From assembly GCA_016192825.1 (NCBI GenBank), contig JACPTK010000006.1:62001-126000 (forward strand): DNA of 64,000 bases, read 5' to 3'. Shown one piece after another: positions 36,081-54,505 of this stretch. The translations under genes were made by a program, and so were the position numbers. Numbering within the stretch: position 1 is the first letter of the stretch; each line of letters opens with the position of its first letter. A model generated the notes under the pieces. The model was not told the origin of the DNA and did no database searches. It was given only the letters and a program-made list of their open reading frames with translations. Source of the stretch: Betaproteobacteria bacterium. Lineage in GTDB: Bacteria > Pseudomonadota > Gammaproteobacteria > Burkholderiales > SG8-41.

Positions 36081-36082
36081 CG

Positions 36083-36772: not shown

Positions 36773-36954
36773 ACGCCACGCTTCAACGACGCGCCGCAGA
36801 AACCCGGCTTGCCAACGCGCGCCGTGCATATGCACTCGCATCAGGACGCGCCCGCGGCGATCCGGAGGCAGCCGAGGAAGCACGGCAAGCCCGCCGCGAG
36901 ATCGACCGGGCGACGCGCGAGCTCGCACGACTGAATGCGAAGGGGATGCAATGA
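36769..36954 (+). CDS. Small helical hypothetical protein
   Basis: A 61-residue, Arg/Ala/Glu-rich protein likely to be one long helix or coiled coil (ETRLANARRAYALASGRARG, then ARREIDRATRELARLNAKG). Its ATG overlaps the stop of the initiator gene (ATGA), indicating co-translation. No family is recognised. Confidence 0.5.
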   Translation: MNATLQRRAAETRLANARRAYALASGRARGDPEAAEEARQARREIDRATRELARLNAKGMQ

Positions 36955-37093
36955 GGCGCTCGACCCCCGGGGGGGCCTTTCCAGTTGGAATCAACGACTT
37001 AGCTGTGTACCCCGCCGCACCTCAGGCGCAGAGGTGACGGGCGGTCCTATGTTTGAAACGGTGCGGCGCACAAATTGAAGGGGTCAGACAGAC

Positions 37094-37399: not shown

Positions 37400-37702
37400 A
37401 TGACGACATCAAAATCAGTGCTGCGCGCCCGGCGGACGGTGGCCGGCCAACGGATGCCACTCGAAATTGAGCAGTGGTTCAGCGGCGAGATCCCGCCCGC
37501 GGATATTCCGTGGCCGGCGCTGATGCCCCCGGATTGCGACCGCCTGCTGCATTGGTGGTGGGAGTATTGGCGCGAACACCCGCAAGCCGTGCCGCCGCCG
37601 TACGTGCGCGGCGCGTTGCGGAATCATTGGGACGCCTACCTGGCGGCGCATCCCGGCGCGATGATGCCGGACGGCTTGGCCGGCATGATCGGCGACGACT
37701 GA
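37400..37702 (+). CDS. Hypothetical protein in the TerL position
   Basis: A 100-residue protein starting right after the TerS stop. It is rich in Trp and Pro (LLHWWWEYWREHPQAVPPPY, then ALRNHWDAYLAAHPGAMMPD). It has no Walker motifs, so it is not a terminase ATPase. Its stop overlaps the next ATG (TGATG). The position suggests a role in DNA packaging or capsid assembly, but this is only context. Confidence 0.55.
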   Translation: MTTSKSVLRARRTVAGQRMPLEIEQWFSGEIPPADIPWPALMPPDCDRLLHWWWEYWREHPQAVPPPYVRGALRNHWDAYLAAHPGAMMPDGLAGMIGDD

Positions 37703-37926
37703 TGACCGGACCTCGCCTACGCCAGCCGGCGCCCTCGACGCGCGACGTTGCGCTCGCCCGAGCCGATGCGCGCCTGGCAGCAGCCAGAGAGAAATTCTCG
37801 ACCGCGTGCGCCGCCTGCCTCGCCGGGCGCATGGATTCCGACGCTCGGATTCAGGACGCCCTGCAGGCCGTGGACCAGGCCCGCGCCGAGCTCGCCCGCC
37901 TCGCTGATGTTGAGGCTGACGAATGA
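37702..37926 (+). CDS. Small helical hypothetical protein
   Basis: A 74-residue protein. The ORF-track frame begins upstream, but ATG 37702 overlaps the previous stop. It is almost entirely Ala/Arg/Asp/Glu-rich helix (DVALARADARLAAAREKFST, then DALQAVDQARAELARL) with a Cys pair (CAAC) in the middle. It overlaps the next ORF by ATGA. Could be a scaffold-like or adaptor protein; function unknown. Confidence 0.5.
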   Translation: MTGPRLRQPAPSTRDVALARADARLAAAREKFSTACAACLAGRMDSDARIQDALQAVDQARAELARLADVEADE

Positions 37927-38318
37927 GCGCGCGCCCGATGCCTGCCGACGCCGATCTGCTCGCCTTGCTGATCCGGATCGACGCCAAGCTCGACCGCCTG
38001 CTCGAGGCCGTCGAGGGTGGGCGCACGCCGGCGCGATCGCTGCGGCATGAGGACCGTGCGGCGATGGCGAAAATTCTCCCGGTCCTGTCTGCAAACTTTT
38101 CCGGCAGCTTCGGGACGTGGGAGCTTATCGACGCCGCTATGCAACCCGATGCGCTCGGCGCGAATCTGCGCTTGGTGCTCGGAGGGCGCGGGGCCCGGGT
38201 GCTGGGGAAGCTATTCCAGCGCGCCCAAGATCAAGACGTTGATGGCTTCCGACTGCGCCGGGCCGGGCAAGACGGAAACGGCGCCTTGTGGGAGTGCATT
38301 GGCAATGAATCGTCCTAG
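37923..38318 (+). CDS. Hypothetical protein upstream of the capsid gene
   Basis: A 131-residue protein. It has an N-terminal coiled segment (LLALLIRIDAKLDRLLEAVE), then a globular part with FGTWELIDAAMQPDALGANL and GARVLGKLFQRAQDQDVDGF. The second part reads like a small helix-turn-helix or DNA-binding fold of phage regulators (residue context only). It lies between TerS-linked ORFs and the capsid gene. Confidence 0.5.
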   Translation: MSARPMPADADLLALLIRIDAKLDRLLEAVEGGRTPARSLRHEDRAAMAKILPVLSANFSGSFGTWELIDAAMQPDALGANLRLVLGGRGARVLGKLFQRAQDQDVDGFRLRRAGQDGNGALWECIGNESS

Positions 38319-38373
38319 CCCGCGCGCGCCGTGCGCCGGATCATGGCGTCAATTCTCAAAGAAAGGACGCAAC

Positions 38374-39441
38374 ATGATCCGACTTCAGTCAGGCGTGCAT
38401 GGCACTTTGCTTGCGGTTCTCGTTCAATGTCTTGCGCGCGCCAACGGCAACCATGGCGTCGCGGCGATGATGGCGAAGTCCGCTTTTCCCGGTTTTCCAA
38501 GCGTCGCCGAAACGCTCGGCCGAATGGGCGGAGTCCGAATGGACGACGTTCCGACTGGCGACACCACGACCGCCGGATGGGCTTCCGAACTTTCGCCTTT
38601 CAACTTGGATTCCGATTTCATCGAGGCCGTTCGCGCGAGAACCATTATCGACAGGTTGAATCAGGCGCGGCGCGCCCCGTTTTTGACCAACGTTCCCGTC
38701 GAGACCGGCCCGGCGAGCGGCGCGTGGGTCGGCGCTGGCGAACCGATTCCTGTAGGGCGAAGCACGTTTACGAATTTCGCGCTGGCGCCGTTTCGCTGCG
38801 GCGTGATCGTGCCTTTGACGCGCGAGTTGATCGACTCCCTCGCGCCGGCCGCGATTGTTGCGATTCGCGAGAGCTTGATTCGAGGCATCGCGGCCTATTT
38901 GGACTCGCAATTTCTCGACCCGTCCGTCGCTGCCGTCACCGACGTTTCCCCCGCCTCGATCACCAATGCACTTGTGCCGGTCATGAGCAGCGGCACCACG
39001 GCGGCGACGATTGCCGCCGATCTCGCCGCGATGCTCAATGCGACCGCGGATTTGGTAAACCCAGTCTGGATCGCGAACGCGCGCACCGCCGCTTACCTCG
39101 CGCTCACGCTCGGGCGGGAGGAAATCAAAATCAACGGCGGAACGCTGCTCGGCATTCCGCTCCTCACGACGCAAAGTTCGCCCGCGCCGGTTGGCAGCCC
39201 GGCAATGCCGAGGATGATTTGTCTGCTCGACCAGGACGCGCTGCTCGTCGCCGACGACGGGCAGGCCGATGTCGCGGTTTCGACCGCGACGGCGCTGTCG
39301 CAGCAGACCGCGCCGAGCTCCGGCGCGCAAAGCACCGTCAGTTTATTTCAAACGCATGCCGTCGCCGTTCGCACGATTCGGCGCATCTCGTGGCGGCGCA
39401 CGCGCACGGCGGGCGTCGTTTACATGGAAGTCAATTACTGA
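38374..39441 (+). CDS. HK97-fold major capsid protein
   Basis: A 355-residue phage capsid protein. The ORF track begins at 38017, but ATG 38374 follows GAAAGGA. HK97-family features: DFIEAVRARTIIDRLNQARR, ASGAWVGAGEPIPVGRSTFT (the usual WVGE-type motif), FRCGVIVPLTRELIDSLAPA, and a C-terminal LFQTHAVAVRTIRRISWRRT. The N-terminal segment is short, so a separate scaffold or a delta-domain may be missing. With the downstream ClpP-like protease it implies that this element builds its own shell. Confidence 0.8.
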   Translation: MIRLQSGVHGTLLAVLVQCLARANGNHGVAAMMAKSAFPGFPSVAETLGRMGGVRMDDVPTGDTTTAGWASELSPFNLDSDFIEAVRARTIIDRLNQARRAPFLTNVPVETGPASGAWVGAGEPIPVGRSTFTNFALAPFRCGVIVPLTRELIDSLAPAAIVAIRESLIRGIAAYLDSQFLDPSVAAVTDVSPASITNALVPVMSSGTTAATIAADLAAMLNATADLVNPVWIANARTAAYLALTLGREEIKINGGTLLGIPLLTTQSSPAPVGSPAMPRMICLLDQDALLVADDGQADVAVSTATALSQQTAPSSGAQSTVSLFQTHAVAVRTIRRISWRRTRTAGVVYMEVNY

Positions 39442-39452
39442 TCGAGGCGCGC

Positions 39453-39962
39453 ATGGACGTACGCGAAAGAATCGCCGCGCTGAACCGGGAATTTTCCGCT
39501 CCCGGCTGCAAGAAACCGATTTCAGAATACAACGCGCGACTCTCAGAGCTCGAGGCCGAAGAGCGACAGGAAAAAGTGTTCGCAGCGGCGCAGAAAGCCA
39601 GGCCGACGATAGACGGGCGCGTCCCGAAACCCGCGCCGGAAGTCTCGCTGGAAAACGACCCGACGCCCGTCACGCGAAAGTTTTTCATGGGAGTTATGAA
39701 GTCCGTGCTGAAAGATGTTGCCGACACGTTCAGGTCCGAGGACGCCAAGCTGCTCGAGAAACTGGAAGCGCGCATAACCGCGATCGAAAACCGCCCAACG
39801 ATGCAGTATCGCGGAGTCTGGGAAGCGGATGGGCGCTATCAACCTGGCGATGTCGTCACGGACTCAGGCTCCATGTGGCACGCCAACTGCAGCACCACCG
39901 CGAGGCCAGGCGCCTCGAGCGATTGGACGCTGTGCGTGAAGCACGGCCGTGATTTGCGATGA
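39453..39962 (+). CDS. Structural protein with a C-terminal carbohydrate-binding-like domain
   Basis: A 169-residue protein from ATG 39453. Residues 1-110 are helical and charged (MDVRERIAALNREFSAPG, and MGVMKSVLKDVADTFRSEDA). The last 55 residues read YRGVWEADGRYQPGDVVTDS, then GSMWHANCSTTARPGASSDW, the aromatic pattern of CBM5/12-type chitin-binding domains often found on phage virions. It may decorate the capsid or bind the cell surface. It overlaps the next ORF by ATGA. Confidence 0.6.
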   Translation: MDVRERIAALNREFSAPGCKKPISEYNARLSELEAEERQEKVFAAAQKARPTIDGRVPKPAPEVSLENDPTPVTRKFFMGVMKSVLKDVADTFRSEDAKLLEKLEARITAIENRPTMQYRGVWEADGRYQPGDVVTDSGSMWHANCSTTARPGASSDWTLCVKHGRDLR

Positions 39963-40204
39963 GCGCCGGGCTGGACCTTTACGACCGCCGCGTGCTGCTG
40001 CACACTTTTGTTAATGACGAAATGGCCAAGGTAGCGGACGGGCTGCGCGCGGAGCTTGAGGCGCAATTTCCGGAAGCCCCGCAATCCGTAATCGACGAGG
40101 CAATCGCCGAAGGCCGGCGGCTGATCTATCAAGAATCGCAGGCGCTTCATGCGCGAGTCGATCGCACGATTGACGGCGCGGTCAAGCGACTGGAAGGAAA
40201 ATGA
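39959..40204 (+). CDS. Small hypothetical structural-module protein
   Basis: An 81-residue, mostly helical acidic protein (LLHTFVNDEMAKVADGLRAE and VIDEAIAEGRRLIYQESQAL). It overlaps both neighbours by ATGA, so it is translated as part of the capsid block. No family recognised. Confidence 0.5.
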   Translation: MSAGLDLYDRRVLLHTFVNDEMAKVADGLRAELEAQFPEAPQSVIDEAIAEGRRLIYQESQALHARVDRTIDGAVKRLEGK

Positions 40205-40461
40205 ACACGCTCGCGCCCGGCACGATTTGCTTCCTGCGCGGTCTTGCCGACTATCCGGACCTGACCGGCCGCGTGGTCGAGGTCGCCCACCTTGTGACGC
40301 TTCCGGATTTCGGCGACGATTGGTATGAGCTGTACGCGCTTTGGATCGTCGAGCGTTTTCCGGGTCAGATGGCGCTTGCGCCGCGCCGCTGCTTGCTGCC
40401 GATCACGCCACCCGGGCCCGCGGCGACAGCCCGCAAGCCCGTGACCGTCGAGGGCTCATAG
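40201..40461 (+). CDS. Small hypothetical protein
   Basis: An 86-residue protein with a beta-rich pattern (TICFLRGLADYPDLTGRVVE, then WYELYALWIVERFPGQMALA) resembling small SH3/KOW-like barrels, ending in a Pro/Ala-rich tail. ATGA overlap with the upstream ORF. The gene is in the structural block; function unknown. Confidence 0.5.
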   Translation: MNTLAPGTICFLRGLADYPDLTGRVVEVAHLVTLPDFGDDWYELYALWIVERFPGQMALAPRRCLLPITPPGPAATARKPVTVEGS

Positions 40462-40462
40462 C

Positions 40463-41425
40463 GTGCGACTCACGGCTTCCGCGCCGGGCAAGTGGGACCC
40501 GGATTTTCGCGCCATTCGGATTTACGCGAGCACGGTTCAAGGCTTCACGCCCGCGTCGGAAAATATCGTTTTCGACGGCGGCGTGATCCCCGAGAACGGC
40601 GAGACTCTCGCCGCCGATGTGAGCGGGCTCGACCCCGGAACGACCTACTACGCGCGCTATCAACTTTTCGATCTTCTTGGCGGCGGCGACATTTCCGACG
40701 AATTTTCATTCACGACGCAGCGTGTCGTTGATCGAGCGACTCCGTACGGCCCCGACTCGACCACCTACACCAGCACCAAGACCGACGTGGCCGGCCCTAA
40801 AGTTGTCGCGATGATCGAGCACACGAATTACCCCGCGGTGCCGGCCCAATTGAGCGCTACCTTCGCCGCGCAGTTAACCGTGGGACCGCTCGATAACGGC
40901 GTCACGCAGTACTGGACGGCTATCCGCTACACCTCGAAACCGGCGTCGGACGGAACTTGCGCGCTCTCGTGGGCCGGAGTCGGCGGCTCGAAATACGATG
41001 TCGTCGGCACCGGCACCGACTTCACGCTGCTGGCGGCCAAGGACTACATATATTTTGGGCCGGGCAAGCCGCTCGCCACGGTCAGCTCGATCACCGATGC
41101 AACGCACATGCGCGTCGCGCTCTATCCAGCCAGTTCCGCGGTGGCGGGCACCGACTTCCCGGTCAGCGGCTGGACCTTTCAGGCATATCACCACACATCC
41201 GGGCTCGCGCAGCAATGCGACCCGCAGTCCGATGTCAGGGAGATGCTGGCGAGCGCGACGCAGGATATCTCCGTGCGGACGGGTTTCCCCATGGTCTTGG
41301 ACGGCGCCATTGGCGTCGCGCTTTTTGCGCTGGCGCAATCGTCAACTGGTGGTGGCGCTAGTTACTACTGCGAAGTGAAGCAATCCTCGCTCGATTCTCA
41401 GTGGGTGATAGGGTCCGGGGCGTGA
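40463..41425 (+). CDS. Putative virion protein with an FN3-like domain
   Basis: A 320-residue protein with a GTG start 1 bp after the previous stop. The N-terminal 95 residues look like a fibronectin type III or Ig-like beta sandwich (GLDPGTTYYARYQLFDLLGG, DEFSFTTQRV). The rest is beta-rich with many Ser, Thr and Gly, as in head-decoration or fibre proteins (CALSWAGVGGSKYDVVGTGT, GWTFQAYHHTSG). No tail tape-measure or baseplate gene is nearby. It could be a capsid fibre. It ends in a GTGA overlap with the protease. Confidence 0.5.
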   Translation: MRLTASAPGKWDPDFRAIRIYASTVQGFTPASENIVFDGGVIPENGETLAADVSGLDPGTTYYARYQLFDLLGGGDISDEFSFTTQRVVDRATPYGPDSTTYTSTKTDVAGPKVVAMIEHTNYPAVPAQLSATFAAQLTVGPLDNGVTQYWTAIRYTSKPASDGTCALSWAGVGGSKYDVVGTGTDFTLLAAKDYIYFGPGKPLATVSSITDATHMRVALYPASSAVAGTDFPVSGWTFQAYHHTSGLAQQCDPQSDVREMLASATQDISVRTGFPMVLDGAIGVALFALAQSSTGGGASYYCEVKQSSLDSQWVIGSGA

Positions 41426-42093
41426 GCGACTGGCACATCGGCGAGGCCAGCCTGATCGCGCGAATCGCGGGCCCGATCAAGCGCCACATGCCGGGCGAGC
41501 TGCGAGCGTTGCTCCCGTACGCGCGCGGAGAAGTGTTAGTTTTTCTGGATAGCCCTGGCGGCGACGGCGACGCGGCGCGCGAGATCCACGACATGCTGCG
41601 AGCGCATCCGCACCAGATCACCGTTTTTATCAGCGGTCACGCGGACTCGAGCGCGTCCTTGATCGCGATGGCCGGGCGGCGGATCTGGATGAGCCCCTCC
41701 GCGCGGATGCTGCTTCATAACCCCGTGCCTGGCCGTGCGGTAAAAAATGCGCCGGGCATGCGGGCGGTCGCGGACGCACAACGCGGCGCGATCTCCGCGC
41801 AACAGAGCTGGCACGGCGTGGCGAGTGTCATCAACGGCGCGATCTCCGAGGCCCTGGCGCAGCCGAGCGCGACATGGGTCGAAGAGCACGCCGCGCAGTA
41901 CGCGAAAATCTACGCTCGCCGGACGCGGCGCCCCGTATCGGAAATGCGGCGGCTGATGGAGATCGGGACCGATCTGAGCGCGCAGCAGGCGGTGGCGAAG
42001 GGATTCGCGGACCGGATCGCCGTCATTGAGCTGCCGCGCGAGGGCAGTATGGGGTGGCGCATGCCGATTTATTCACATGCGAGGCCATCATGA
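41422..42093 (+). CDS. ClpP-like head maturation protease
   Basis: A 223-residue ClpP/SppA-fold serine protease typical of phage prohead processing. I use GTG 41422, overlapping the previous stop; the ORF-track start is 41401. Key motifs: LDSPGGDGDAAREIHDMLRA (oxyanion region), ISGHADSSASLIAMAGRRIW (nucleophile Ser) and PSARMLLHNPVPG (His). The C terminus has GTDLSAQQAVAKGFADRI, common in ClpP-type phage proteases. In most phages it precedes the capsid gene; here it is about 2 kb downstream. Confidence 0.85.
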   Translation: MSDWHIGEASLIARIAGPIKRHMPGELRALLPYARGEVLVFLDSPGGDGDAAREIHDMLRAHPHQITVFISGHADSSASLIAMAGRRIWMSPSARMLLHNPVPGRAVKNAPGMRAVADAQRGAISAQQSWHGVASVINGAISEALAQPSATWVEEHAAQYAKIYARRTRRPVSEMRRLMEIGTDLSAQQAVAKGFADRIAVIELPREGSMGWRMPIYSHARPS

Positions 42094-42296
42094 TGCAATC
42101 CCTCTACTGCATGTTGTTCTGGGCCGCCTGCCAGTCGCCGGGCATCGAGCCCGAGTGGGACGAGTGGGCGTGGTCGCTGCCGCCGCGCGTCGAGCAAGCC
42201 CGCCCGCTCGAACAGTCGCCGCCGTGGTCGAGTTTCTACGCGCGCATTTTCGAGCAGCCGCCGTCACCGGGCCACGGCGTGCCGGGCCGGCGCTGA
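42090..42296 (+). CDS. Small Pro-rich protein, possible lipoprotein
   Basis: A 68-residue ORF overlapping the protease stop (ATGA). A short hydrophobic N terminus with a Cys (SLYCMLFWAACQSPG) precedes a Pro/Glu/Trp-rich tail (PPWSSFYARIFEQPPSPG). This loosely recalls Rz1-type spanin lipoproteins, but the lipobox is poor and no holin or endolysin is present, so the call stays open. Confidence 0.4.
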   Translation: MMQSLYCMLFWAACQSPGIEPEWDEWAWSLPPRVEQARPLEQSPPWSSFYARIFEQPPSPGHGVPGRR

Positions 42297-42325
42297 CGCA
42301 TCCGCGCGCGCGAGGCGCGCTAAAC

Positions 42326-42355
42326 AAAAGCCTTCCCAATAATGGGAAGCCTTTT
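42326..42355 (+). terminator. Terminator of the island A structural operon
   Basis: AAAGCCTTCCC-AATAAT-GGGAAGCCTTT forms a stem of about 10 bp with one internal C-C mismatch, followed by TT. The direct repeat CGCGCGCGCGAGGCGC flanks it on both sides (near 42304 and 42364). Confidence 0.65.
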
Positions 42356-42446
42356 GCGTCACCCGCGCGCGCGAGGCGCACTGTGCCGAGTCTTGCGTGC
42401 TCCAGGCCTCGCGGGCTGTCGAGTATTCAACCTGATACGCTTGGCG

Positions 42447-42812
42447 ATGGCGGAAAATGGCCTGAACGGCTTCGGCGCGCGATTCGAAAACTGGCGGCGC
42501 TGGTGTTTTGCAAACGGCCGCCATGTCGGTCGCGCCGGCTCCGCCGAGGGCGGCTGGCGCAGCCCGCAGCATTGGTATCCCGAGGATCCCCGGCCACCCG
42601 CGATCGACGTGCCGGACGCGGTGCTCGTGAATCAGGCATTCACGTCGCTTGCGTTACTCGCGCCGCGACAGGCGCGGATCATCAAGATCATCACCTTCCG
42701 CCCGTACCTCAGGCCCCAGTACCAAGCTCAGAAGCTCGGCATCCACTACCTGCAGCTCGGCGAGGCGTACCACCGCGCCAAGCTGGCGCTCGCCGCGCGG
42801 CTGTCAGACTGA
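42447..42812 (+). CDS. Putative antiterminator Q/RinA-like regulator
   Basis: A 121-residue protein; the ORF-track frame begins at 42342 in the terminator, and ATG 42447 is the first sensible start. It contains FENWRRWCFANGRHVGRAGS, then VNQAFTSLALLAPRQARIIK and a helix-turn-helix-like end (YLQLGEAYHRAKLALAARLS). This combination resembles late-gene regulators of the phage Q/RinA/sigma-70-like group. It stands alone at the distal end of island A behind a terminator. Call is by pattern only. Confidence 0.45.
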   Translation: MAENGLNGFGARFENWRRWCFANGRHVGRAGSAEGGWRSPQHWYPEDPRPPAIDVPDAVLVNQAFTSLALLAPRQARIIKIITFRPYLRPQYQAQKLGIHYLQLGEAYHRAKLALAARLSD

Positions 42813-42942
42813 TCCTCTCCGCGCCCTGATTCCCTATCGCCTGGCCGCGTGGCGCTGCGCTGTGGCGCTCGCGCGCCCTGCCTGACCCATTCCCCCGTCC
42901 GCGGCCGGCGGCGCGTCCTGACGCAAATCTCGAATGAAAACG

Positions 42943-42959
42943 CCCGCCAGTGTGGCGGG
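42943..42959 (+). terminator. Hairpin near the right end of island A
   Basis: CCCGCCA-GTG-TGGCGGG is a perfect 7-bp stem with a 3-nt loop, preceded by ATGAAAACG. No U-run follows. It lies 130 bp after the last island A gene. The rest of 42813-43012 shows no gene. Confidence 0.5.
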
Positions 42960-43012
42960 TGACCCCGACGACCGCGAGGCTAGGGCGGTGGCGAATCCAG
43001 ACAGCGCCACTG

Positions 43013-43042
43013 TTCGCAACGCCTTGCAACACCCGGTATAAT
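43013..43042 (+). promoter_or_regulatory. Island-borne promoter facing tRNA-Cys
   Basis: A perfect TATAAT (43037-43042) with TTCGCA 18 bp upstream, located 35 bp before the attR copy of the tRNA-Gly 3' half. It points toward tRNA-Cys and may replace the original upstream tRNA promoter that the island displaced. Confidence 0.4.
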
Positions 43043-43077
43043 TACGGTGTCGCTAGTTGTAGCGCAGTGGCGGGATT

Positions 43078-43125
43078 ACCTTGCCAAGGTTGAGGTCGCG
43101 AGTTCGAGACTCGTTTCCCGCTCCA
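43078..43125 (+). repeat. attR of island A (tRNA-Gly 3' half copy)
   Basis: Exact 48-bp copy of 33279-33326. Upstream it is joined to TAGCGCAGTGGCGGGATT, which cannot form the normal D-arm and acceptor of tRNA-Gly, so this copy is not a functional tRNA. Confidence 0.9.
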
Positions 43126-43220: not shown

Positions 43221-43291
43221 GGCGGGGTGGCAGAGTGGTCATGCAGCGGCCTGCAAAGCCGTGGACGCCGGTTCGATTCCGACCCCCGCCT
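43221..43291 (+). tRNA. cysT: tRNA-Cys (GCA), CCA not encoded
   Basis: A 71-nt tRNA: acceptor GGCGGGG/CCCCGCC, D-arm GGCAGAGTGGTCATGC, anticodon arm CGGCCTGCAAAGCCG (GCA) and T-arm GCCGGTTCGATTCCGAC. The 3' end reads T-CCC rather than T-CCA, whereas the displaced 3' half at attR of island B reads TCCA. So CCA was probably encoded before island B integrated and must now be added enzymatically. Confidence 0.95.
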
Positions 43292-43293
43292 CC
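43250..43293 (+). repeat. attL of island B (44-bp tRNA-Cys 3' half)
   Basis: From the anticodon stem to the end of tRNA-Cys, 44 bp are repeated exactly at 54462-54505. An integrase relic follows about 130 bp downstream. Confidence 0.88.
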
Positions 43294-43418
43294 CTCCCAT
43301 TCTCGCGAAGCGCAGTAACCCTTCCTTCCCCCTCGACGGGGGAAGGATCAGAGGATGGGGGTGGTGCTCAACTTCCTCCATCCTTCGGGTCTGCGACTGC
43401 TCGGCCGCCGTGGTCCCT

Positions 43419-43604
43419 GCACGGGACAAGCTCGGCCTCAAGGACCTGCGGCTGCACGACCTGCGCCATGAGGCAACGTCCACGCTCTTCGAGAAGGGCC
43501 TGTCCCCGATCGAGGTGGCGACGATGACGGGGCACAAGACACTGAACACACTGAAGCGGTATACACACCCGAACGTCACTGAGATTGCGCGGAAGCTCGG
43601 ATAG
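43419..43604 (+). pseudogene. Integrase C-terminal relic of island B
   Basis: The frame carries the end of a tyrosine recombinase: LGLKDLRLHDLRHEATSTLF (His-x-x-Arg), ATMTGHKTLNTLKRYTHPNV (His and the nucleophile Tyr) and a TAG stop. The first Arg box and the whole N terminus are missing. A 9-bp hairpin CCTTCCCCC/GGGGGAAGG (43324-43346) lies where the body of the gene should be. It marks the tRNA-proximal end of the island. Confidence 0.8.
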
Positions 43605-44509: not shown

Positions 44510-44665
44510 ATGACTGTTGAAACCGAAGCGAAAAGCCGAATCCTTAAGGCGGTTCACCAAACCGCCCGCGATCTTCAGGTGGCCGGATTGATCGACGAAC
44601 GGGCGGATGGTGAGCACAACGCACTGTGCCTTGCGCCATTGCCGGACTATTCAAGAGAGCAGTAA
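44510..44665 (+). pseudogene. N-terminal relic of a HigA-like antitoxin
   Basis: A 51-residue frame from ATG 44510: KSRILKAVHQTARDLQVAGL, then EHNALCLAPLPDYSREQ and TAA. It matches the N terminus of HTH antitoxins whose next residues would be the Cro/CI helix-turn-helix. The DNA-binding domain and any toxin partner are missing. Too short for the ORF track. Confidence 0.45.
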
Positions 44666-44723
44666 TCTTGACGTACTGCTGAACGGAGGCAAAAAATGCG
44701 GGTTAGGCAAGGGGGGATCCACC

Positions 44724-45884
44724 ATGGATCGGAGGCTCAAAGTACTTCTCGTCGAAGATAGTCGGACCGACGCCGAGCTCGCTCTTCACGAGTTGAAAGA
44801 AGCCGGGATGGACTGCGTCGGTCGAAGAGTGGAGACCCGCGCCGAAATGATCAGCGAGCTGGAAACCTTCGTCCCCGACGTTATTTTGGGAGACTTCTCG
44901 CTTCCCCAATTCGACGGTCTTTCAGCCCTGGAGATCGCCCGCACGAGAAGTCCGGCAACGCCGTTTATTTTTGTCTCGGGTACCATCGGGGAAGATGCGG
45001 CAATTGAAACGCTCGAGCACGGTGCCGCCGATTACATCCTGAAAACCAATCTCAAACGGCTCGCCACCGCCGTGCGTCGAGCGCTGAAAGACGTCAAGGA
45101 GCGCGCCGCGCGCGAGCGGCTGGAATCGCGGCTGAGTCGTCTGGCGCGATACGACGCCCTGACGGAACTGCTCAATCGCAGCCAGTTTCGCGATCGTCTG
45201 GGTGGGGCGATGGCGCGGGCAACCCGTAACAAGCAACTGGTGGGGGTCATGTTCCTCGATCTGGACCGCTTCCAGACCGTGAACGCGACGCTGGGTCACG
45301 GTGCAGGCGATTTCGTGCTCAAGCAGGTGGCCGAGCGCCTCGAGCAGAGCGTGCGCAAGGGCGACACGGTCGCCCGCCTAGGCGGAGACGAGTTCTCCGT
45401 GATCCTCGAGGGGCTGGGCGAAAAAGACGGGGCGACCGTGGGGGCGCAGCGGGCTCTGGAGTCGCTGTCGCGGCCGGTGCTTCTGAACGGCGAGGAAATC
45501 CGATTGACCGTCAGCATCGGCATCACCGTCTTCCCGCTCGACGCCCATGACCTCGACGCATTGCTGCGAAACGCCGACGTGGCGATGTACTACGTTAAGG
45601 AGCACGGGCGCAACAACTACCGGTTCTATTCCCCAGGCCTGGAGGCGAATAGCCGGCGCGACGCACTGCGCCGCGGCGAGATCGAGCAGAGGCTGGCGCG
45701 CCTGACGCCGCGCGAGCGCGAAGTGCTGGACCTGCTGATCGCGGGAAAAGCGAGCAAGATGATCGCCTATCTTATCGGTGCCAGCTGCCGGACCATCGAG
45801 CATCACCGCGCCAGAATCATGGACAAGATGCAGGCCGACTCCCTGCCCGAACTGGTGCGCATGGTGCTCGAGCAACGAGGCTGA
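44724..45884 (+). CDS. Response regulator with GGDEF and LuxR-type HTH domains
   Basis: A 386-residue protein; ATG 44724 follows AAGGGGGGAT. The receiver domain (KVLLVEDSRTDAELALHELK; phospho-Asp about residue 57 in ILGDFSLPQFDG) is followed by a diguanylate cyclase domain (YDALTELLNRSQFRDRLGGA; catalytic RLGGDEFSV near 220, with the inhibitory-site RKGD five residues upstream). The C terminus is a LuxR/NarL HTH (LTPREREVLDLLIAGKASKM, then CRTIEHHRARIMDKM). GGDEF and RxxD sites look intact, so it may make c-di-GMP and bind DNA. It has no kinase adjacent on its 5' side; the hybrid kinase is downstream. Confidence 0.85.
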   Translation: MDRRLKVLLVEDSRTDAELALHELKEAGMDCVGRRVETRAEMISELETFVPDVILGDFSLPQFDGLSALEIARTRSPATPFIFVSGTIGEDAAIETLEHGAADYILKTNLKRLATAVRRALKDVKERAARERLESRLSRLARYDALTELLNRSQFRDRLGGAMARATRNKQLVGVMFLDLDRFQTVNATLGHGAGDFVLKQVAERLEQSVRKGDTVARLGGDEFSVILEGLGEKDGATVGAQRALESLSRPVLLNGEEIRLTVSIGITVFPLDAHDLDALLRNADVAMYYVKEHGRNNYRFYSPGLEANSRRDALRRGEIEQRLARLTPREREVLDLLIAGKASKMIAYLIGASCRTIEHHRARIMDKMQADSLPELVRMVLEQRG

Positions 45885-45897
45885 ATTCATATAGCCA

Positions 45898-45945
45898 GAT
45901 TCCCTGCCCGAGCTGGTGCACAAGCGAACCTTATGTCGATTATAG
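45898..45945 (+). pseudogene. Duplicate LuxR-HTH tail
   Basis: Thirteen bases after the preceding stop, the frame reads DSLPELVHKRTLCRL and TAG, nearly repeating that protein's own DSLPELV tail. It looks like the end of a second response regulator gene, left by recombination between homologous genes. No upstream part exists. Confidence 0.45.
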
Positions 45946-46220
45946 TCAATACGTTGTAACTAATTTTGAGCCCCAAGCCCAGCACACTTAATGGGTACAT
46001 GTACGGATTTCCCGTGCTTGAGCACTTGTATAAGATTCATGTCGCATGCTGTGCGATGGACGCGGCCGAAACAGCGGACTTCCGCCGCGCGGCAGCGTGC
46101 GGCAAAGCTCCTACTGTTACTGATGCAACGGCACGTTTGGAGTTGGCGTGAACGGAGCATCACCTAACATTGAGCGGCCAAGCGGTAGAATTACAGGGGA
46201 AATACAGCACTTGAACCAAA

Positions 46221-46317
46221 GCTTCCGTTGAAGGGCAAACCCGACCGAAAGGCGGGGGCGCAAAGTCACCAGTCTAAAGGGTGAAAACCCTAGGACAGTG
46301 GGATCGCTAGATGGAAC
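46221..46317 (+). promoter_or_regulatory. Cyclic-di-GMP-I (GEMM) riboswitch
   Basis: The leader contains the hallmarks of the c-di-GMP-I aptamer. P1 pairs TTCCGTT (46223) with GATGGAA (46310). GGGCAAACC leads into a stem with a bulged A and a GAAA tetraloop (CCCGACCGAAAGGCGGG), then GGCGCAAAGTCACC and AGTCTAAAGGG, a second arm closed by ACCC, and GGACAGTGGGATCGCTAG. These match the order of conserved blocks in the Vc2 aptamer. It lies about 160 nt upstream of the hybrid kinase GTG. Downstream hairpins (CCGGCT/AGCCGG at 46384; CGAATGC/GCATTCG near 46403) may be the expression platform. No U-tract terminator is seen. The rest of 45946-46220 shows no gene. Confidence 0.85.
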
Positions 46318-46475
46318 TCCCGGCCCGGCGCTTCGCGGGGCCTATCTCATCCGCGTTTCCCATCCCGTTTACTGACTAGCCCCCGGCTTTCTGCAGCCGG
46401 ATTCGAATGCGCTTTCGGCGGCATTCGTCAACCCGGTGGAGGTTGCCCCAACGAATTTGCGGGGAGGGAAAGCAC

Positions 46476-49400
46476 GTGCTCAACTTGGATTTGTTTAGCC
46501 CATTGCGATGGCTGGGGCCGCCTTTGCGCGCTTTGCGGCGATTCTCCACGATCGCGCTTCCGTCAGTTTGGAATGAACAGAATCGCAGTAGTCTGGCGGC
46601 GCTTTTCACCTTCGTATCGCTGTTTGCGCTCACCCTGTGGTCTTGGCACCTCATTTCCGGAGACGTCTTGCGGATCGGACGCGAGCGGTTCGATTTCAAA
46701 GTAAGCGAGGTTCAGTTCGCGGTTGAGCAGCGCCTGCTCGCCTATGAACAGGTGCTGCGCGGCGGGGTCGCCTTGTTCGCCGCGAGCGACGAAGTGAGCA
46801 GGGACGAATGGCGCGCGTACGTGCGCACACTCCACGTCGACCGGAAATATCCCGGCATTCAGGGAGTGGGCTTCGCGGTCAGCGTGCGTCCGGCCGAACG
46901 CGAGACACACATCCGGACCATTCGATCGCAGGGCTTCCCGTCTTACAACATATGGCCAGCCGGTGAGCGCGAGGAGTATACGGCGATCATTTACCTCCAT
47001 CCCTTCGACTGGCGCAACCAGCGTGCCTTCGGCTACGACATGTTCTCTGAACCAGTGCGCCGGGAAGCCATGTCTCGCGCCCGCGACACCGGGAACACGG
47101 CCGTATCGGCCAGGGTCAAGCTCGTCCAGGAAACCGAGAAGGACGTCCAGCAGGGCTTTCTGATGTACCTCCCGGTGTATCGCAACGGCGCCGCCACAAA
47201 TGATGAGCAGGTGCGAAGGAACGCCTTTTTGGGTTATGTCTATGCCCCGTTTCGAATGAACGATTTGATGGTGGGCGTTCTTGGGCTGGAGAAGCTGCCG
47301 AACATCCGTTTTGAGATTTTTGACGGTGAAACGGCTTCGGCGGAGCACCTGATGTACGACAGCCTGATGCAATCGGCGGCGAGCAAACCGGCGTACACGG
47401 CCACGGAGGCATTCGAATTCAGCGGGCGACGCTGGACGCTTCGCTATAGCACGTTGCCCGCATTCGACGCGACGATTGACGTGCAGAAGCCCCGCTTGGT
47501 GCTGTTAAGCGGCCTGCTGATCAGCGCTTTGGTCGCAGCGGTTGTGTGGGCGCTCTCGCTGAACCGCCGGCGGGCGCGCGCCCTCGCCGACGCGAATCGC
47601 GGCCTGGAAGCCGAGATCGAGGAGCGCACCAGGCTCGCGGCCGAACTGAGGGACGCGAAGAACGCCGCCGAGGCGGCGAATCAGGCGAAGAGCGAGTTTC
47701 TGGCGAACGTTAGCCACGAGCTGCGCACGCCCCTGACGTTGGTGCTCGCGCCCCTGGAGCAGTTGCTCCGCGCACGTCACCCGTCAGCGGAATCGCGCAC
47801 TCAACTCGAGCGCGCCCAGCGCAATGCGCTGTTGCTTCTGAACCGCGTCAATGACCTTCTCGATTTCTCGAAGGCCGAAGCGGGCAAGTTCGAAGTGCGC
47901 TGGGAGGCCGTTGATCTCGGCGAACTACTTCCGCCGATCGCCGAAGACGCGGCGGCGGTCGCCGAGAGCCGCGGCTGCTCACTCACCTGCCACGTTGATC
48001 CCGAATTGGGATCGGTGTACCTGGAGCGCCGCCACTTCGACAAGATTGCACTGAATTTGATCAGCAACGCGCTCAAGTTCACGCCGGCCGGCGGACGGAT
48101 CCGCATTGAGGCTGCGGCGCTTGACGCAGAGCACTTCGAATTCGCGGTCCAGGACTCCGGTATCGGTATCCCGGCCGATAGGCTCCCGCTGCTCTTCGAG
48201 CGCTTCCGGCAAGTCGATAGCTCCGCGACGCGCCAGTACGGAGGAACCGGCATCGGGCTTGCACTGGTCAAGGAACTGGCGCAGCTGATGAATGGCCGGG
48301 TCGGCGTCAGGAGTGAGCCGGGTCAGGGTTCACGCTTCTACGTGCGCTTTCCCCGCACCAGGACCTGCGTCGGAACGCCGGATTCCTGCGTGGAGTCCGG
48401 ATCTGCGGTCGTCCCTGCCGAGATGGATGTCGCGCTGCGTCGGATTCGTTTCCGGGATGGGGGAGCTCATGAGACACGCGAGTCCGCTAACCCGCAAGCC
48501 CCGGGGGCGGTGCGCGGCGCCGCCGCGTCCCATGTTCTGGTCGTCGACGACAGCCCGGAGATGTGCAGCTACCTGGCCGAGTTGCTGAGCGAGGAGCACC
48601 AGGTCCTCAGCGCCGCCAACGGCCACGAAGCTTGGGACCTGCTTCAGCGCCATCCCGTCGACGTCGTGGTCTCGGACGTCATGATGCCGGTGCTGGACGG
48701 GTATGGCCTCACGGCCCGAATCAAGGCAAGCGCGAGTTTCGCTCACGTCCCCGTGATCCTGGTGACCGCCCGCGGCGGCCCGGACGCGGGTGCTTCGGGA
48801 CTCGATGGCGGAGCGGACGACTATATCGCCAAGCCGTTCTCGCCGCAGGAGCTGAGAGCGCGGGTACGCGCAGCGTTGCGCATGCGTGAGGTCCAGTCGC
48901 GGCTGACGAACCTGTCCCGGGAAGCGGGCATGGCGACTGTCGCCGCCGACATCCTGCATGACCTGGGCAACGTCCTGAGCGTCCTCAACGTGTCCTCGGA
49001 GGTCATCCTCGACACGCTGCGCCGATCCAAGCTGGCCAAGCTCGAAAAAGCCGCCGCGCTGCTGCAGGAACATGCGAACGATCTGTCGGCCTTTCTCGGC
49101 GAGGACGGCCGCGGCGGCAAGCTGCAAGCCTTCCTGGCTCAACTCGTCGAGCACCTTGAGGCCGAACGAGCCGTGCTGCTCAGGGAGTGCGACGTAATTC
49201 GTGACTGCACGGATCACGCGGCTATGGTTATCTCGGCGCACGAGCCGCTCGCAAGGGCCGGCAGGCTGTGCGAAATCGTTTCGGCGAACAGCCTGGTGGA
49301 GGGCGCGCTCAAGATGAAGAACGGGATCTTCGACCTCCACGGGATCAAAATCGAGCGCGATTACGCTGCAACCGCCCCGTTGGCGGTTGACCGGCACAAG

Positions 49401-49781
49401 GGGCTGCAAATTCTGTTGAACCTGCTCGCGAACGCCGTCGATGCCCTGCGCGCAGCGCAACGTCCCGACAGGCGGATCAGGCTCCGAACGACCAGAGCGG
49501 AGGGGCGCATCCGCATCGAGATCAGCGACAACGGCCAGGGCATCGAGCCGCAGCATCTCGCGCGCCTGTTCGACCAGGGCTTCACCACCAAGGCGGACGG
49601 TCGCGGCATAGGCCTGCATGCGAGCGCGAACTGGGCCCAACAGCTTGGCGGAAGGCTCTGGGCACACAGCGAAGGGCGGGGAAAGGGCGCCACCTTCATC
49701 CTCGAAATCCCGGCACTGGCGATGGACGGGCCGGGCGCGGAGGTTGCTGTCCCGGCTCACCTCGAATCTGCCGAGTCTTAG
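46476..49781 (+). CDS. CHASE-domain hybrid histidine kinase with a second ATPase module
   Basis: GTG 46476 follows GGGGAGGGAA, giving 1101 residues; the ORF track begins at 46407. In order: transmembrane helix, periplasmic CHASE domain (RKYPGIQGVGFAVSVRPAER; FLMYLPVYRNGA), second helix (RLVLLSGLLISALVAAVVWA), HisKA (LANVSHELRTPLTLVLAPLE, His about 413), HATPase (LISNALKFTPAGGRIRI; GGTGIGLALVKELAQL), receiver (VLVVDDSPEMCSYLAELLSE; Asp about 736 in VVSDVMMPVLDG), then a second HisKA-like box (AADILHDLGNVLSVLNV) and a second complete HATPase (LQILLNLLANAVDALRAAQ; GRGIGLHASANWAQQLGG). The c-di-GMP riboswitch upstream should couple its expression to the nucleotide. Confidence 0.88.
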   Translation: MLNLDLFSPLRWLGPPLRALRRFSTIALPSVWNEQNRSSLAALFTFVSLFALTLWSWHLISGDVLRIGRERFDFKVSEVQFAVEQRLLAYEQVLRGGVALFAASDEVSRDEWRAYVRTLHVDRKYPGIQGVGFAVSVRPAERETHIRTIRSQGFPSYNIWPAGEREEYTAIIYLHPFDWRNQRAFGYDMFSEPVRREAMSRARDTGNTAVSARVKLVQETEKDVQQGFLMYLPVYRNGAATNDEQVRRNAFLGYVYAPFRMNDLMVGVLGLEKLPNIRFEIFDGETASAEHLMYDSLMQSAASKPAYTATEAFEFSGRRWTLRYSTLPAFDATIDVQKPRLVLLSGLLISALVAAVVWALSLNRRRARALADANRGLEAEIEERTRLAAELRDAKNAAEAANQAKSEFLANVSHELRTPLTLVLAPLEQLLRARHPSAESRTQLERAQRNALLLLNRVNDLLDFSKAEAGKFEVRWEAVDLGELLPPIAEDAAAVAESRGCSLTCHVDPELGSVYLERRHFDKIALNLISNALKFTPAGGRIRIEAAALDAEHFEFAVQDSGIGIPADRLPLLFERFRQVDSSATRQYGGTGIGLALVKELAQLMNGRVGVRSEPGQGSRFYVRFPRTRTCVGTPDSCVESGSAVVPAEMDVALRRIRFRDGGAHETRESANPQAPGAVRGAAASHVLVVDDSPEMCSYLAELLSEEHQVLSAANGHEAWDLLQRHPVDVVVSDVMMPVLDGYGLTARIKASASFAHVPVILVTARGGPDAGASGLDGGADDYIAKPFSPQELRARVRAALRMREVQSRLTNLSREAGMATVAADILHDLGNVLSVLNVSSEVILDTLRRSKLAKLEKAAALLQEHANDLSAFLGEDGRGGKLQAFLAQLVEHLEAERAVLLRECDVIRDCTDHAAMVISAHEPLARAGRLCEIVSANSLVEGALKMKNGIFDLHGIKIERDYAATAPLAVDRHKGLQILLNLLANAVDALRAAQRPDRRIRLRTTRAEGRIRIEISDNGQGIEPQHLARLFDQGFTTKADGRGIGLHASANWAQQLGGRLWAHSEGRGKGATFILEIPALAMDGPGAEVAVPAHLESAES

Positions 49782-49796: not shown

Positions 49797-51905
49797 ATGA
49801 GGAGCATCAAGCCCAATAACGCTGCCGCGGAGGCCGGGGTAATGGGCCGCCGGCAGATTGCGACTTGCGCGAACCACGCCTCTTCCGGCGGAGTTCGCTC
49901 CGCGCCGATAAATGGCCGACCGCATTTGGCGGTATCTGCCGCTGTGGAAAGTACAGAAAACCATGGGGATCAAGAGAGCCCCGTCGTTCCGCGGATCCTG
50001 GTCGTTGACGATAATTCCGACATCCTGGCTCTGTTTAGCAAGATTCTTGGCGGGGGCAGCAGTACCTCGGCCCGGACACTGGAGCAGCTTGAGGCGTCGC
50101 TGTTGGGTGTCGACGTCCCGGAGATCCCCGATCAGCCCCGCTTCCAACTGGATGTGACGAACAGCGGCGAGGACGGACGTGCCAAAGCGATCGCCGCGCG
50201 CCTTGAGGGGCGCCCCTACAGGGTGGCCTTCGTCGATATGCGCATGCCCGGCGGCTGGAACGGTCTGGAAACGATCGAGGCACTGTGGGAGGCGGATCCC
50301 GACATCCAGGTGGTGATCTGCAGCGCCTATAACGACTACTCCCGGAACGAAATCGTCGGCCGGCGCGGTCGCTCGGACAACCTGCTGATCCTGCGCAAGC
50401 CGTTCGAGGCGATCGAAGTGCTTCAATGTGCTTGTGCGCTGTCGGACAAATGGTCGCTGCATCGGGAGCGCGAAGTCCGGTTGAACGAGCTGGAACAGCG
50501 AATCGAAGAGCGTACGCGCCAACTCCAGTACCAAGCGACCCATGACGCGCTCACCGGCTTGCCGAACCGCACGCTCTTCATGGATCGCCTGCAGCAGCGG
50601 ATCGCTTACGCGAAGCGTCATGGCGGGCGCATCGTGGTTTGTTTAATCGATCTGGATCACTTCAAATTCGTGAACGACAGCCTCGGACATGGCAGGGGAG
50701 ACCAGTTGCTGAAGACGGTATCCGACCGCATGTCGGGGTGCCTGCGCGAATCGGACACCATCGCGCGCTTCGGCGGCGACGAGTTCGTGCTCCTGCTGTC
50801 GGCTCCTCACGAGCCCGAAGATGCCATGCAAATCCTGCGGCGCCTGGTCGCCTCCCTGTCCCAGCCCGTCGTGCTCGGCGGGCAGGAGGTGATCGTCACC
50901 TGCAGCGTGGGCTGTAGCACCTACCCGGAAGACGGGTCGGACGCCAATGCGCTGCTCAAGTTCGCCGACGCCGCGATGTACTGCGCCAAGGAAATCGGCC
51001 GCAACGGAATCCAGGTCTACAACGATCGCCTGCGCGGCCGGATCGATGAGCGGATCAAGCTCGAATCGGAATTGCGGCGCGCGCTGGACCGCGGGCAGCT
51101 CGTGCTTGACTATCAACCGCAGGTCGATCTGCGGACCGGCCGCATCGTCGGGATGGAGTCCCTGCTGCGCTGGAAGCATCCCGAATTCGGCCTCGTCGCC
51201 CCCGGCCGCTTCATTCCCATTGCTGAGGAAATTGGCGTTATCGTGCCGCTCACCGAGTGGGTGTTGCGGCAGGCGTGCGTCCAGAACAAGGCCTGGCAGG
51301 AGGCGGGACTGCCGCCCGTACAAATGGCTGTCAACTTGTCGATGAAGCAACTGAGACGCCTCAAGCTCGACTCCCTGGTCGCCCAGTGCTTGGCTTCGAG
51401 CCGGCTCGACCCGGGCTTCCTGGAGCTTGAGGTCACCGAGAGCGCCACGATGGAGGATCCCGAAGCAACCATTCTCCTGATGCGCGCGCTCAAGAAATGT
51501 GGCGTCGGCATCACGATCGACGATTTCGGCACGGGATTCTCCAACCTGCGCTACCTCAGGCAGTTTCCCGTAGACAAGCTCAAGCTGGACGGTTCGTTTG
51601 TCCGGGACATCGCCAGCGATGCAGGCAGCCTCGCCATCGCCGACGCGATCATCGCCATGGCCCATCGGCTGAATCTCAAGGTCGTCGCCGAAATGGCGGA
51701 AACCGAGGAGCAGGTCGCGTGCCTTGTGAGTCATGGTTGCGACTACGTCCAGGGCTATTACTTCGGTCGCCCGGTCGGCGCCGACGAGTGCGCGCGGCTG
51801 TTGCGGTCAGGCCCTTTCCCGGTTCCCGGGCACACCGGGGCCGCCAGCGCTCGCGATCGGACGGCCAGAGGCTTGCAGCTTGGGGATTCCGCGAGCCGCC
51901 CCTAG
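49797..51905 (+). CDS. Response regulator with GGDEF and EAL domains
   Basis: A 702-residue protein (ATG 49797, SD AGGAGTGAG), 15 bp after the kinase, so probably its output partner. A 60-residue disordered N terminus leads to a receiver (PRILVVDDNSDILALFSKIL) that has an insertion of about 30 residues before its phospho-Asp (VAFVDMRMPGG, about 147). A coiled linker (NELEQRIEERTRQLQYQATH) joins GGDEF (TIARFGGDEFVLLLSA, with inhibitory-site RESD) and EAL (motif variant GMESLLRWKHPEFG; VTESATMEDPE; DDFGTGFSNLRYL; VAEMAETEEQ; GCDYVQGYYF). Both cyclase and phosphodiesterase residues appear present. Its TAG shares CTAG with the convergent next gene. Confidence 0.88.
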   Translation: MRSIKPNNAAAEAGVMGRRQIATCANHASSGGVRSAPINGRPHLAVSAAVESTENHGDQESPVVPRILVVDDNSDILALFSKILGGGSSTSARTLEQLEASLLGVDVPEIPDQPRFQLDVTNSGEDGRAKAIAARLEGRPYRVAFVDMRMPGGWNGLETIEALWEADPDIQVVICSAYNDYSRNEIVGRRGRSDNLLILRKPFEAIEVLQCACALSDKWSLHREREVRLNELEQRIEERTRQLQYQATHDALTGLPNRTLFMDRLQQRIAYAKRHGGRIVVCLIDLDHFKFVNDSLGHGRGDQLLKTVSDRMSGCLRESDTIARFGGDEFVLLLSAPHEPEDAMQILRRLVASLSQPVVLGGQEVIVTCSVGCSTYPEDGSDANALLKFADAAMYCAKEIGRNGIQVYNDRLRGRIDERIKLESELRRALDRGQLVLDYQPQVDLRTGRIVGMESLLRWKHPEFGLVAPGRFIPIAEEIGVIVPLTEWVLRQACVQNKAWQEAGLPPVQMAVNLSMKQLRRLKLDSLVAQCLASSRLDPGFLELEVTESATMEDPEATILLMRALKKCGVGITIDDFGTGFSNLRYLRQFPVDKLKLDGSFVRDIASDAGSLAIADAIIAMAHRLNLKVVAEMAETEEQVACLVSHGCDYVQGYYFGRPVGADECARLLRSGPFPVPGHTGAASARDRTARGLQLGDSASRP

Positions 51906-53494
51906 GTTTCGGGGCTCAGCAGCGTAGTCATCTCCTCAAAGGGCAGCGGCTTGCTATAGAGAAACCCCTGCATCTCGTCGCAGCCGAAAAGGCGCAGGAC
52001 GTTTGCCTGGTCCTCCGAATCAACACCCTCGGCCACGACGGTCAGCTTCAAGGAATGAGCCAGCTCGATGACCGTGCGGAAGAGGCTCATGGTATCCGGA
52101 TCCGCCAGCATCGTAATGACGAACGACCGGTCGATCTTGAGTGAATGCACGGGCAGCTTGGCCAGGTATGCGAGCGAGGAATAGCCGGTCCCGAAATCGT
52201 CGATCGCGATGCGAACGCCGAGGCCCCGGACATTCTTCAGCTTGTCGATGTTGCCCTGAACGTCCTCCATGACGACGCTCTCGGTGATCTCCAGATCGAT
52301 ACCTGTCGGAGCGATACCCTCCATGATCGCCCGTTCGACGGTCCCGACAAAGTCGCGCTGTCGCAACTGTATTGACGAAACGTTTACCGCAATTCTTGGC
52401 GCTGGGAGCCGGGCCTCGGTCCACCTGCAGTGATCGAGGGACGCTCGATTCATCGCCCAGGATCCGACTTCCAGGATAAGACCGGTTTCCTCCAGCAACG
52501 GGATGAATTGCACGGGAGGTACGAGGCCGAGTTCGGGGCTCCGCCACCGGATCAGCGCCTCCACTCCCGCGATTTTCCGCGTCTTGAGGTCGACCTTCGG
52601 CTGGTAGTGCAGCACGAACTCCTCCTTTTCCAGCCCCTGCCTCAGCTTGTTTTCCAAGGCCAGCTTCTCCGCCACCCGTGCGGTCATCTGCGGGGCGTAG
52701 AACAAGTAGCGTTCGCCGCTGGTCTTCGCCTTCTTGACCGCTGCTTCAGCGTGCTTGAACAGCGTTTCGGCATCATCGCCATCAGCGGGGAACAGCGCGA
52801 TGCCGGCCTTTGCCGAGACGCGGAGCTCCGTCGCATGAAGCCGGTAGGGCTGACCAAACACCGTTCGCGTGTGCGCCTCGACGATCCGGGCAAGCTCGTC
52901 CTCCAGGCGAATATCCGGGAGTAAGACGGCAAACTGATCGGCCCCGACGCGCGCAACGGCGCCCGCGTCGCCGACGGCTTTCGCCGTGCGTTGGGCCACT
53001 TGCTTGAGCAATTCGTCGCCCGCCGTCCGACCGAGCGAATCATTGATGGTCTTGAATCGTTCGATGTCCGTCAGGAGTAACGCAAGCGCCCGCGGTCGTT
53101 GGGCTCCGGCGTGAACGAGCTGGCCCACCCTCTCCAGAAAGAGGGTGCGATTCGCCAGCCCCGTCAATGAATCGTAGTAGGCGAGATAGGCGAGCTTTTG
53201 CTCTTTTTCGAGATGGTCCAGCGCGAAGGCGATGTCGCCGACCAGCTCGCGCAACAGCTTGATCTCTTCTTCATCAAAGAAGCCGCGTTCCCCCGCGTGC
53301 AGCACCAGAACCCCGGCAGCCTCGCCGGAAACGATGAATGGCAGCACCGCCAGCCCATTCGCCTTACGACGAACGAGTGGTACAAGGCCGCTCAACTCGG
53401 CGACACGTACTGGCTCTACGTCGTGTGGGACCCGCTCGGCAAGCCGGACCGCGAGCCGGTGCGGATTCGGAACCCCGTGAAGCACCTCGATCAC
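51902..53494 (-). CDS. GAF-GGDEF-EAL protein, 5'-truncated, degenerate cyclase
   Basis: The ORF has 530 codons, but true homology starts near 53360: the first 45 codons are antisense to a plus-strand DUF3883 relic. What remains is the second half of a GAF domain (LAVLPFIVSGEAAGVLVLHA; FFDEEEIKLLRELVGDIAFA), a GGDEF domain whose active site is GADQF (VARVGADQFAVLLP), hence not a cyclase, and a full EAL domain (GVEALIRWRSPELGLVPP; LEITESVVMEDV; DDFGTGYSSLAYL; VAEGVDSEDQ). It could still be a phosphodiesterase if translated from an internal or antisense-derived start; otherwise it is a pseudogene. Confidence 0.75.
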   Translation of the reverse strand: MIEVLHGVPNPHRLAVRLAERVPHDVEPVRVAELSGLVPLVRRKANGLAVLPFIVSGEAAGVLVLHAGERGFFDEEEIKLLRELVGDIAFALDHLEKEQKLAYLAYYDSLTGLANRTLFLERVGQLVHAGAQRPRALALLLTDIERFKTINDSLGRTAGDELLKQVAQRTAKAVGDAGAVARVGADQFAVLLPDIRLEDELARIVEAHTRTVFGQPYRLHATELRVSAKAGIALFPADGDDAETLFKHAEAAVKKAKTSGERYLFYAPQMTARVAEKLALENKLRQGLEKEEFVLHYQPKVDLKTRKIAGVEALIRWRSPELGLVPPVQFIPLLEETGLILEVGSWAMNRASLDHCRWTEARLPAPRIAVNVSSIQLRQRDFVGTVERAIMEGIAPTGIDLEITESVVMEDVQGNIDKLKNVRGLGVRIAIDDFGTGYSSLAYLAKLPVHSLKIDRSFVITMLADPDTMSLFRTVIELAHSLKLTVVAEGVDSEDQANVLRLFGCDEMQGFLYSKPLPFEEMTTLLSPET

Positions 53495-54461: not shown

Positions 54462-54505
54462 CCTGCAAAGCCGTGGACGCCGGTTCGATTCCGACCCCCG
54501 CCTCC
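54462..54505 (+). repeat. attR of island B (displaced tRNA-Cys 3' half)
   Basis: Exact 44-bp copy of 43250-43293, followed by A so that the original CCA is visible (CCTCCA). tRNA-Leu begins 21 bp further on, which should be the ancestral cysT-leuZ spacing. Confidence 0.88.

Follow-up and report, generated by a model that had tools for sequence, protein, structure and literature searches.

We identified a c-di-GMP-I riboswitch in front of an operon that encodes a CHASE hybrid kinase and a REC-GGDEF-EAL response regulator, both located on an acquired island. With moderate confidence, we propose that this riboswitch controls the operon through a translational OFF mechanism. In the absence of ligand, the strand at 46348-46391 would invade the aptamer (the 3' strand of P2, the GAAA loop, the AGUCA segment and the 3' strand of P3/P1), leaving the Shine-Dalgarno sequence GGGGAGGG free and allowing translation of the kinase. 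With c-di-GMP bound, the aptamer would hold, and the strand UUUCCCAUCCCGU (46356-46368) would be released to pair with GCGGGGAGGGAAA (46459-46471), blocking translation. All coordinates refer to the window, that is, the whole analysed stretch of 64,000 nucleotides, and the relevant features are as follows.

43250-43293, forward strand: attL-type repeat, the 3' end of tRNA-Cys(GCA) (gene at 43221-43293, ARAGORN); 44-bp perfect direct repeat
43404-43604, forward strand: C-terminal remnant of a tyrosine integrase beside attL (PF00589, 38.8 bits, ORF residues 70-122, profile positions 117-170 of 172; PHROG integrases)
44607-45884, forward strand: REC-GGDEF protein with LuxR-type HTH (Pfam); GGDEF motif and RxxD I-site intact in the translation
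46164-46191, forward strand: sigma-70-like promoter candidate CTAACA-16-TAGAAT (consensus scan, 9/12 matches; weak evidence)
46223-46316, forward strand: c-di-GMP-I aptamer with P1, P2 with GAAA loop, and P3 (RF01051, 70.2 bits; P1 from folding)
46348-46391, forward strand: predicted switching strand, with the aptamer or (via 46356-46368) the Shine-Dalgarno region as partners (folds)
46383-46400, forward strand: predicted hairpin CCGGCU/AGCCGG (46383-46388/46395-46400), formed only with the switching strand off the aptamer (folds)
46459-46478, forward strand: Shine-Dalgarno sequence GGGGAGGG (46461-46468) and probable GTG start (46476) of the kinase (sequence; folds)
46476-49781, forward strand: hybrid kinase, CHASE-HisKA-HATPase-REC and a second HATPase module (Pfam)
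49797-51905, forward strand: REC-GGDEF-EAL response regulator, 15 nt past the kinase in the same operon (Pfam)
51902-53494, reverse strand: GAF-GGDEF-EAL protein with degenerate GADQF and intact EAL, a convergent island neighbour (Pfam; motifs in the translation)
54462-54505, forward strand: attR-type repeat, second copy of the tRNA-Cys 3' end and right border of the island; 44-bp perfect direct repeat

The earlier note had read a c-di-GMP-I riboswitch with a GAAA tetraloop and a closing P1 from positions 46221-46317. The identification held, and the coordinates were correct to a few bases (46223-46316 with P1). The Infernal search that it had proposed (Rfam 15) returned RF01051 (c-di-GMP-I) at 46224-46311 of the forward strand with 70.2 bits (E 9.8e-12, model positions 1-87 of 87), twice the gathering score of 35 bits; the remaining Rfam matches in the 64-kb window were three tRNAs. 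All blocks of the aptamer were present, including the GAAA tetraloop, P2, P3 and the CGCAAAG joining region. According to folding, P1 closes the aptamer outside the Rfam model with 7 bp (46223-46229/46310-46316, UUCCGUU/GAUGGAA; five Watson-Crick and two G-U pairs). P3 contains one A-C mismatch (46264/46305). In the RF01051 alignment, G46234 and C46307 are the G and C found in c-di-GMP-specific members, and we take them to be equivalent to the ligand-contacting positions G20 and C92 of Vc2. Judged by these features, the element at 46224-46311 is a genuine member of the c-di-GMP-I class, ordinary as an RNA and predicted to bind c-di-GMP. It shares with the class the full-length aptamer, the P1-P2-P3 arrangement, the GAAA loop and the ligand-contacting G and C. 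It differs in its first gene, a CHASE hybrid kinase, and in the proposed switching strand, which would invade P2 and the joining region plus P3/P1 and would target the Shine-Dalgarno sequence rather than a terminator.

That the surrounding cluster lies on an acquired island, as the earlier note had supposed, is demonstrated by the att-type repeats of tRNA-Cys and by empty sites in relatives. The 11.2 kb between the repeats contain the whole c-di-GMP cluster together with the riboswitch. In six genus relatives, tRNA-Gly(GCC), tRNA-Cys(GCA) and tRNA-Leu(TAA) occur within 0.9 kb with the same flanking genes, and the empty site is seen as tRNA-Cys and tRNA-Leu at most 0.5 kb apart; in a seventh relative the tRNA-Leu side alone is visible. 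In the window, this tRNA array is split by two inserts of 9.8 kb and 11.2 kb. The G+C content of the 11.2-kb island is slightly below that of its left flank (62.1 versus 65.5%). We found no intact integrase on the island, only the C-terminal fragment, so the island has probably lost the ability to move on its own.

The 9.8-kb element at tRNA-Gly(GCC) (33279-43125) is bordered by 48-bp perfect repeats of the tRNA-Gly 3' end (33279-33326 and 43078-43125). It encodes an integrase, a replication-initiation-like protein, a major head protein and a head maturation protease; the ORFs tested included no tail genes. Such a gene set suggests a capsid-forming phage satellite or a reduced prophage.

Pfam analysis of the island agreed with the reading of a downstream operon of a kinase and a GGDEF-EAL protein, and of a GGDEF response regulator upstream of the riboswitch. 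The latter is a REC-GGDEF protein whose LuxR-type HTH matched PF00196 with 59.6 bits. Among the listed matches from 200 genomes of the order, none outside the window combined REC, GGDEF and HTH, and a cyclase with DNA-binding output seems rare. The CHASE domain of the kinase matched PDB 6k62 (E 8e-25, an entry labelled 'Histidine kinase'), which we take to be the PcrK sensor domain. Close orthologues of the kinase were not found in 74 genomes of the family, where the best-scoring match reached 46% identity over partial length, and at E 1e-120 the kinase matched nothing but itself in 300 genomes of the order. Its nearest relatives elsewhere share about 33-53% identity with it in segments, one example being that of Mesorhizobium camelthorni; the kinase was not found in viral contigs or plasmids. 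In the REC-GGDEF-EAL protein (49797-51905) both the GGDEF motif and the RxxD site are intact in the translation. The degenerate GADQF and intact EAL of the convergent protein (51902-53494), whose GGDEF domain has no I-site, suggest an island-borne phosphodiesterase. The host genome encodes about 20 other GGDEF domains.

From the promoter-like site, transcription is predicted to start at about 46198. The kinase most likely begins at GTG 46476, because GGGGAGGG lies 8-15 nt upstream of it. The in-frame ATG 46407 chosen by the ORF caller falls within the leader and has no comparable Shine-Dalgarno sequence; a start there would mean that translation begins inside the leader and would count against the OFF model.

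The competing complementarities of the leader are directly visible, and in silico they yield two folds that exclude each other; in the one that keeps the aptamer, the Shine-Dalgarno sequence is blocked. In the free fold, 46247-46251 pairs with 46387-46391, 46253-46259 with 46379-46385 and 46264-46268 with 46373-46377, and further pairs form between 46298-46303 and 46358-46363 and between 46310-46313 and 46348-46351. Strand 46348-46391 thereby dismantles P2, P1 and part of P3. In the aptamer-kept fold, 46356-46361 pairs with 46466-46471 and 46363-46368 with 46459-46464, masking the Shine-Dalgarno region 46459-46471.

The calculated cost of opening the Shine-Dalgarno sequence was 2.65 kcal/mol with the aptamer displaced versus 13.46 with the aptamer enforced. 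This difference of 10.8 was reached by none of 400 dinucleotide-shuffled linkers (mean 1.66, sd 2.13), as a prediction from one sequence and by a metric picked after the folds were inspected. In a second context (46198-46520, core Shine-Dalgarno GGAGG) the difference was 6.92, compared with 0.84 ± 1.47 for the shuffles, 2 of 600 of which reached it. The sign of the difference was unchanged in 20 of 20 choices of start and end, at each of three temperatures and under the Andronescu parameter set (6.96). When the transcript was started at 46175 instead of about 46198, the difference was only 0.2-4.6 kcal/mol. The energy model places the aptamer state about 11 kcal/mol below the displaced state in stability; switching would therefore have to be co-transcriptional and stabilised by ligand. 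A search of 74 family genomes, 300 genomes of the order and 80 kinase-relative loci retrieved no homologous leader for a covariation test of the competing pairings. A switch test based on the raw energy of antisense pairing of the aptamer with the linker was uninformative (window z +0.7), because it ignores intramolecular structure.

The same region might instead serve ligand-dependent control of transcription, with c-di-GMP exposing the C-rich stretch 46343-46391 to Rho, or with termination in the absence of ligand. This stretch is C-rich and G-poor and follows a GC hairpin (46322-46342); in the free state the aptamer covers it, whereas in the aptamer state part of it becomes exposed. Moreover, Rho-dependent riboswitches are known, such as E. 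coli ribB, which is cited in PMC11218506. However, the leader has no intrinsic terminator, the C-rich strand is better accounted for as an anti-Shine-Dalgarno and anti-aptamer strand, and Rho sites have no reliable consensus. We regard this explanation as possible but doubtful. Control by an intrinsic terminator and antiterminator was rejected, since the leader contains no such site (zero terminator-like sites in 45850-46520).

The riboswitch could also be a relic that still binds c-di-GMP but ceased to control the kinase once the island had entered its present host. In line with this, the island integrase is truncated, P3 carries the A-C mismatch 46264/46305, and the riboswitch is the sole RF01051 match in its own genome (5.1 Mb, 123 contigs) and absent from the sampled genus relatives. 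Yet a 70-bit aptamer with every core block in place, intact reading frames and a linker that is far from random as regards switching make a relic unlikely. As a point against the OFF model, the operon could be silent in the present host.

A translational ON switch, with kinase expression raised by c-di-GMP, would have precedents, as c-di-GMP-I and related cGAMP aptamers act as both ON and OFF switches (PMC9262584). But the Shine-Dalgarno sequence was less accessible with the aptamer folded in all 20 contexts, and we consider this direction very unlikely. That the RNA senses 3',3'-cGAMP (GEMM-Ib) or another molecule is scarcely credible: the superfamily is the same and variant classes (RF03167) occur in the same bacterial family, but G46234 occupies a position that is A in cGAMP-sensing variants, the best-matching family is RF01051 and not a variant model, and the local enzymes have ordinary GGDEF motifs.

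The class is common across the order and patchy near the present genome: RF01051 was present in 149 of 399 genomes of the order, 17 of 74 of the family and 0 of 9 other genomes of the genus. As the target at 138 loci of the order we took the longest ORF starting at most 600 nt from the riboswitch, a rough rule applied with no gene finder. The targets fell into 49 clusters; 30 representatives were submitted to Pfam and the others were motif-screened only. DUF1631 proteins formed the largest cluster (47 of the 138 loci, including L213, L174, L187, L191 and L194), and we found no literature naming both DUF1631 and c-di-GMP. Other targets were subtilases, pilin-like GspH, cNMP-binding, REC-PilZ, REC-Hpt and CheW proteins, an Hpt protein that is maybe CheA, and HD, EAL and adenylate/guanylate cyclase proteins. 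Variant aptamers at four loci (L017, L023, L024 and L025) fit RF03167 (c-di-GMP-I-GGC) with 57-66 bits, two of them just under the cut-off of 59. These aptamers come from the same bacterial family, and some of them lie ahead of PEP-CTERM or adhesin-like (RTX, cadherin-like) genes. Five related riboswitches from one genus (L011, L013, L014, L022 and L030) precede cNMP-binding proteins. In L011, for example, AGAGAUUGCC in the 3' part of the aptamer has its near complement, GGUAAUCUCU, downstream of it, likely a platform that competes with P1/P3, unlike that of the window.

Control of a CHASE hybrid kinase had been called unusual in the earlier note. This stands for the first gene, since a histidine-kinase motif was detected there at only one of the 138 loci, that of the window. 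It needs softening in other respects: at locus L301, from another family of the order, kinases are the second and third genes, and signalling genes are frequent targets. L301 has a c-di-GMP-I riboswitch of 76.5 bits followed by ETR1_N-PAS, PAS-HisKA-HATPase and REC-GAF-PAS-HATPase proteins. Many c-di-GMP-I-associated genes are known to act in c-di-GMP production, degradation or signalling (Sherlock and Breaker review, PMC7266159). Under the same target rule, 22 loci outside the order yielded one GGDEF protein and no kinases. Among 80 kinase-relative loci (1.07 Mb including the window), none outside the window had a riboswitch, and in literature searched by titles and abstracts we recognised no c-di-GMP riboswitch ahead of a hybrid histidine kinase. 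A kinase is thus an uncommon, but not unprecedented, target.

Several described systems resemble parts of the arrangement. In Cd1 of Clostridioides difficile, an OFF switch, and pilM of Geobacter, an ON switch, aptamer and downstream strand compete co-transcriptionally (PMC9262584). The window leader has a comparable competition, and Cd1 matches its proposed OFF direction; both known switches, however, act through transcription termination, whereas no terminator was found here. In the Bacillus thuringiensis Bc1 leader, which has a long expression platform, the ribosome-binding site and the start codon become part of a stem when c-di-GMP is added (PMC11218506). The window's platform is likewise long and its start region is predicted to be masked with c-di-GMP; Bc1 differs by its two intrinsic terminators and by controlling mcpE, another kind of gene. 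At the protein level, PcrK/PcrR of Xanthomonas campestris combines a CHASE kinase with a phosphodiesterase regulator (PMC7072313). The window has a similar, putative pairing of a CHASE-domain kinase with a regulator acting on c-di-GMP, but its hybrid kinase is larger and a riboswitch stands at the head of its operon. L301 is also a riboswitch-led sensor-kinase operon; it has no CHASE domain, its first gene has no ATPase domain, and its gene set is different.

The predicted three-part leader switch is new here; each component of the riboswitch, operon and island is of a known kind, and the combination is uncommon. It is plausible that c-di-GMP feeds back on its own signalling genes. The operon product is likely a diguanylate cyclase/phosphodiesterase, so that the loop would close on c-di-GMP; the sign of the feedback would depend on the main activity of the REC-GGDEF-EAL protein, negative for a cyclase and positive for a phosphodiesterase. 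If the OFF model is true, the level of a sensor kinase is governed by c-di-GMP, and the operon of this kinase in turn makes a c-di-GMP enzyme, forming a compact feedback circuit on one acquired insert. This circuit would be a tractable case for studying how a resident network is kept undisturbed when second-messenger modules are acquired, and its three-part switch gives rise to precise mutation predictions. More tentatively, the island may represent a self-contained, horizontally acquired c-di-GMP circuit, comprising cyclase and phosphodiesterase domains, a CHASE kinase and a riboswitch that throttles translation of the sensor operon through a strand switching between aptamer and Shine-Dalgarno sequence, and may in this way limit its own effect on the c-di-GMP pool of the host.
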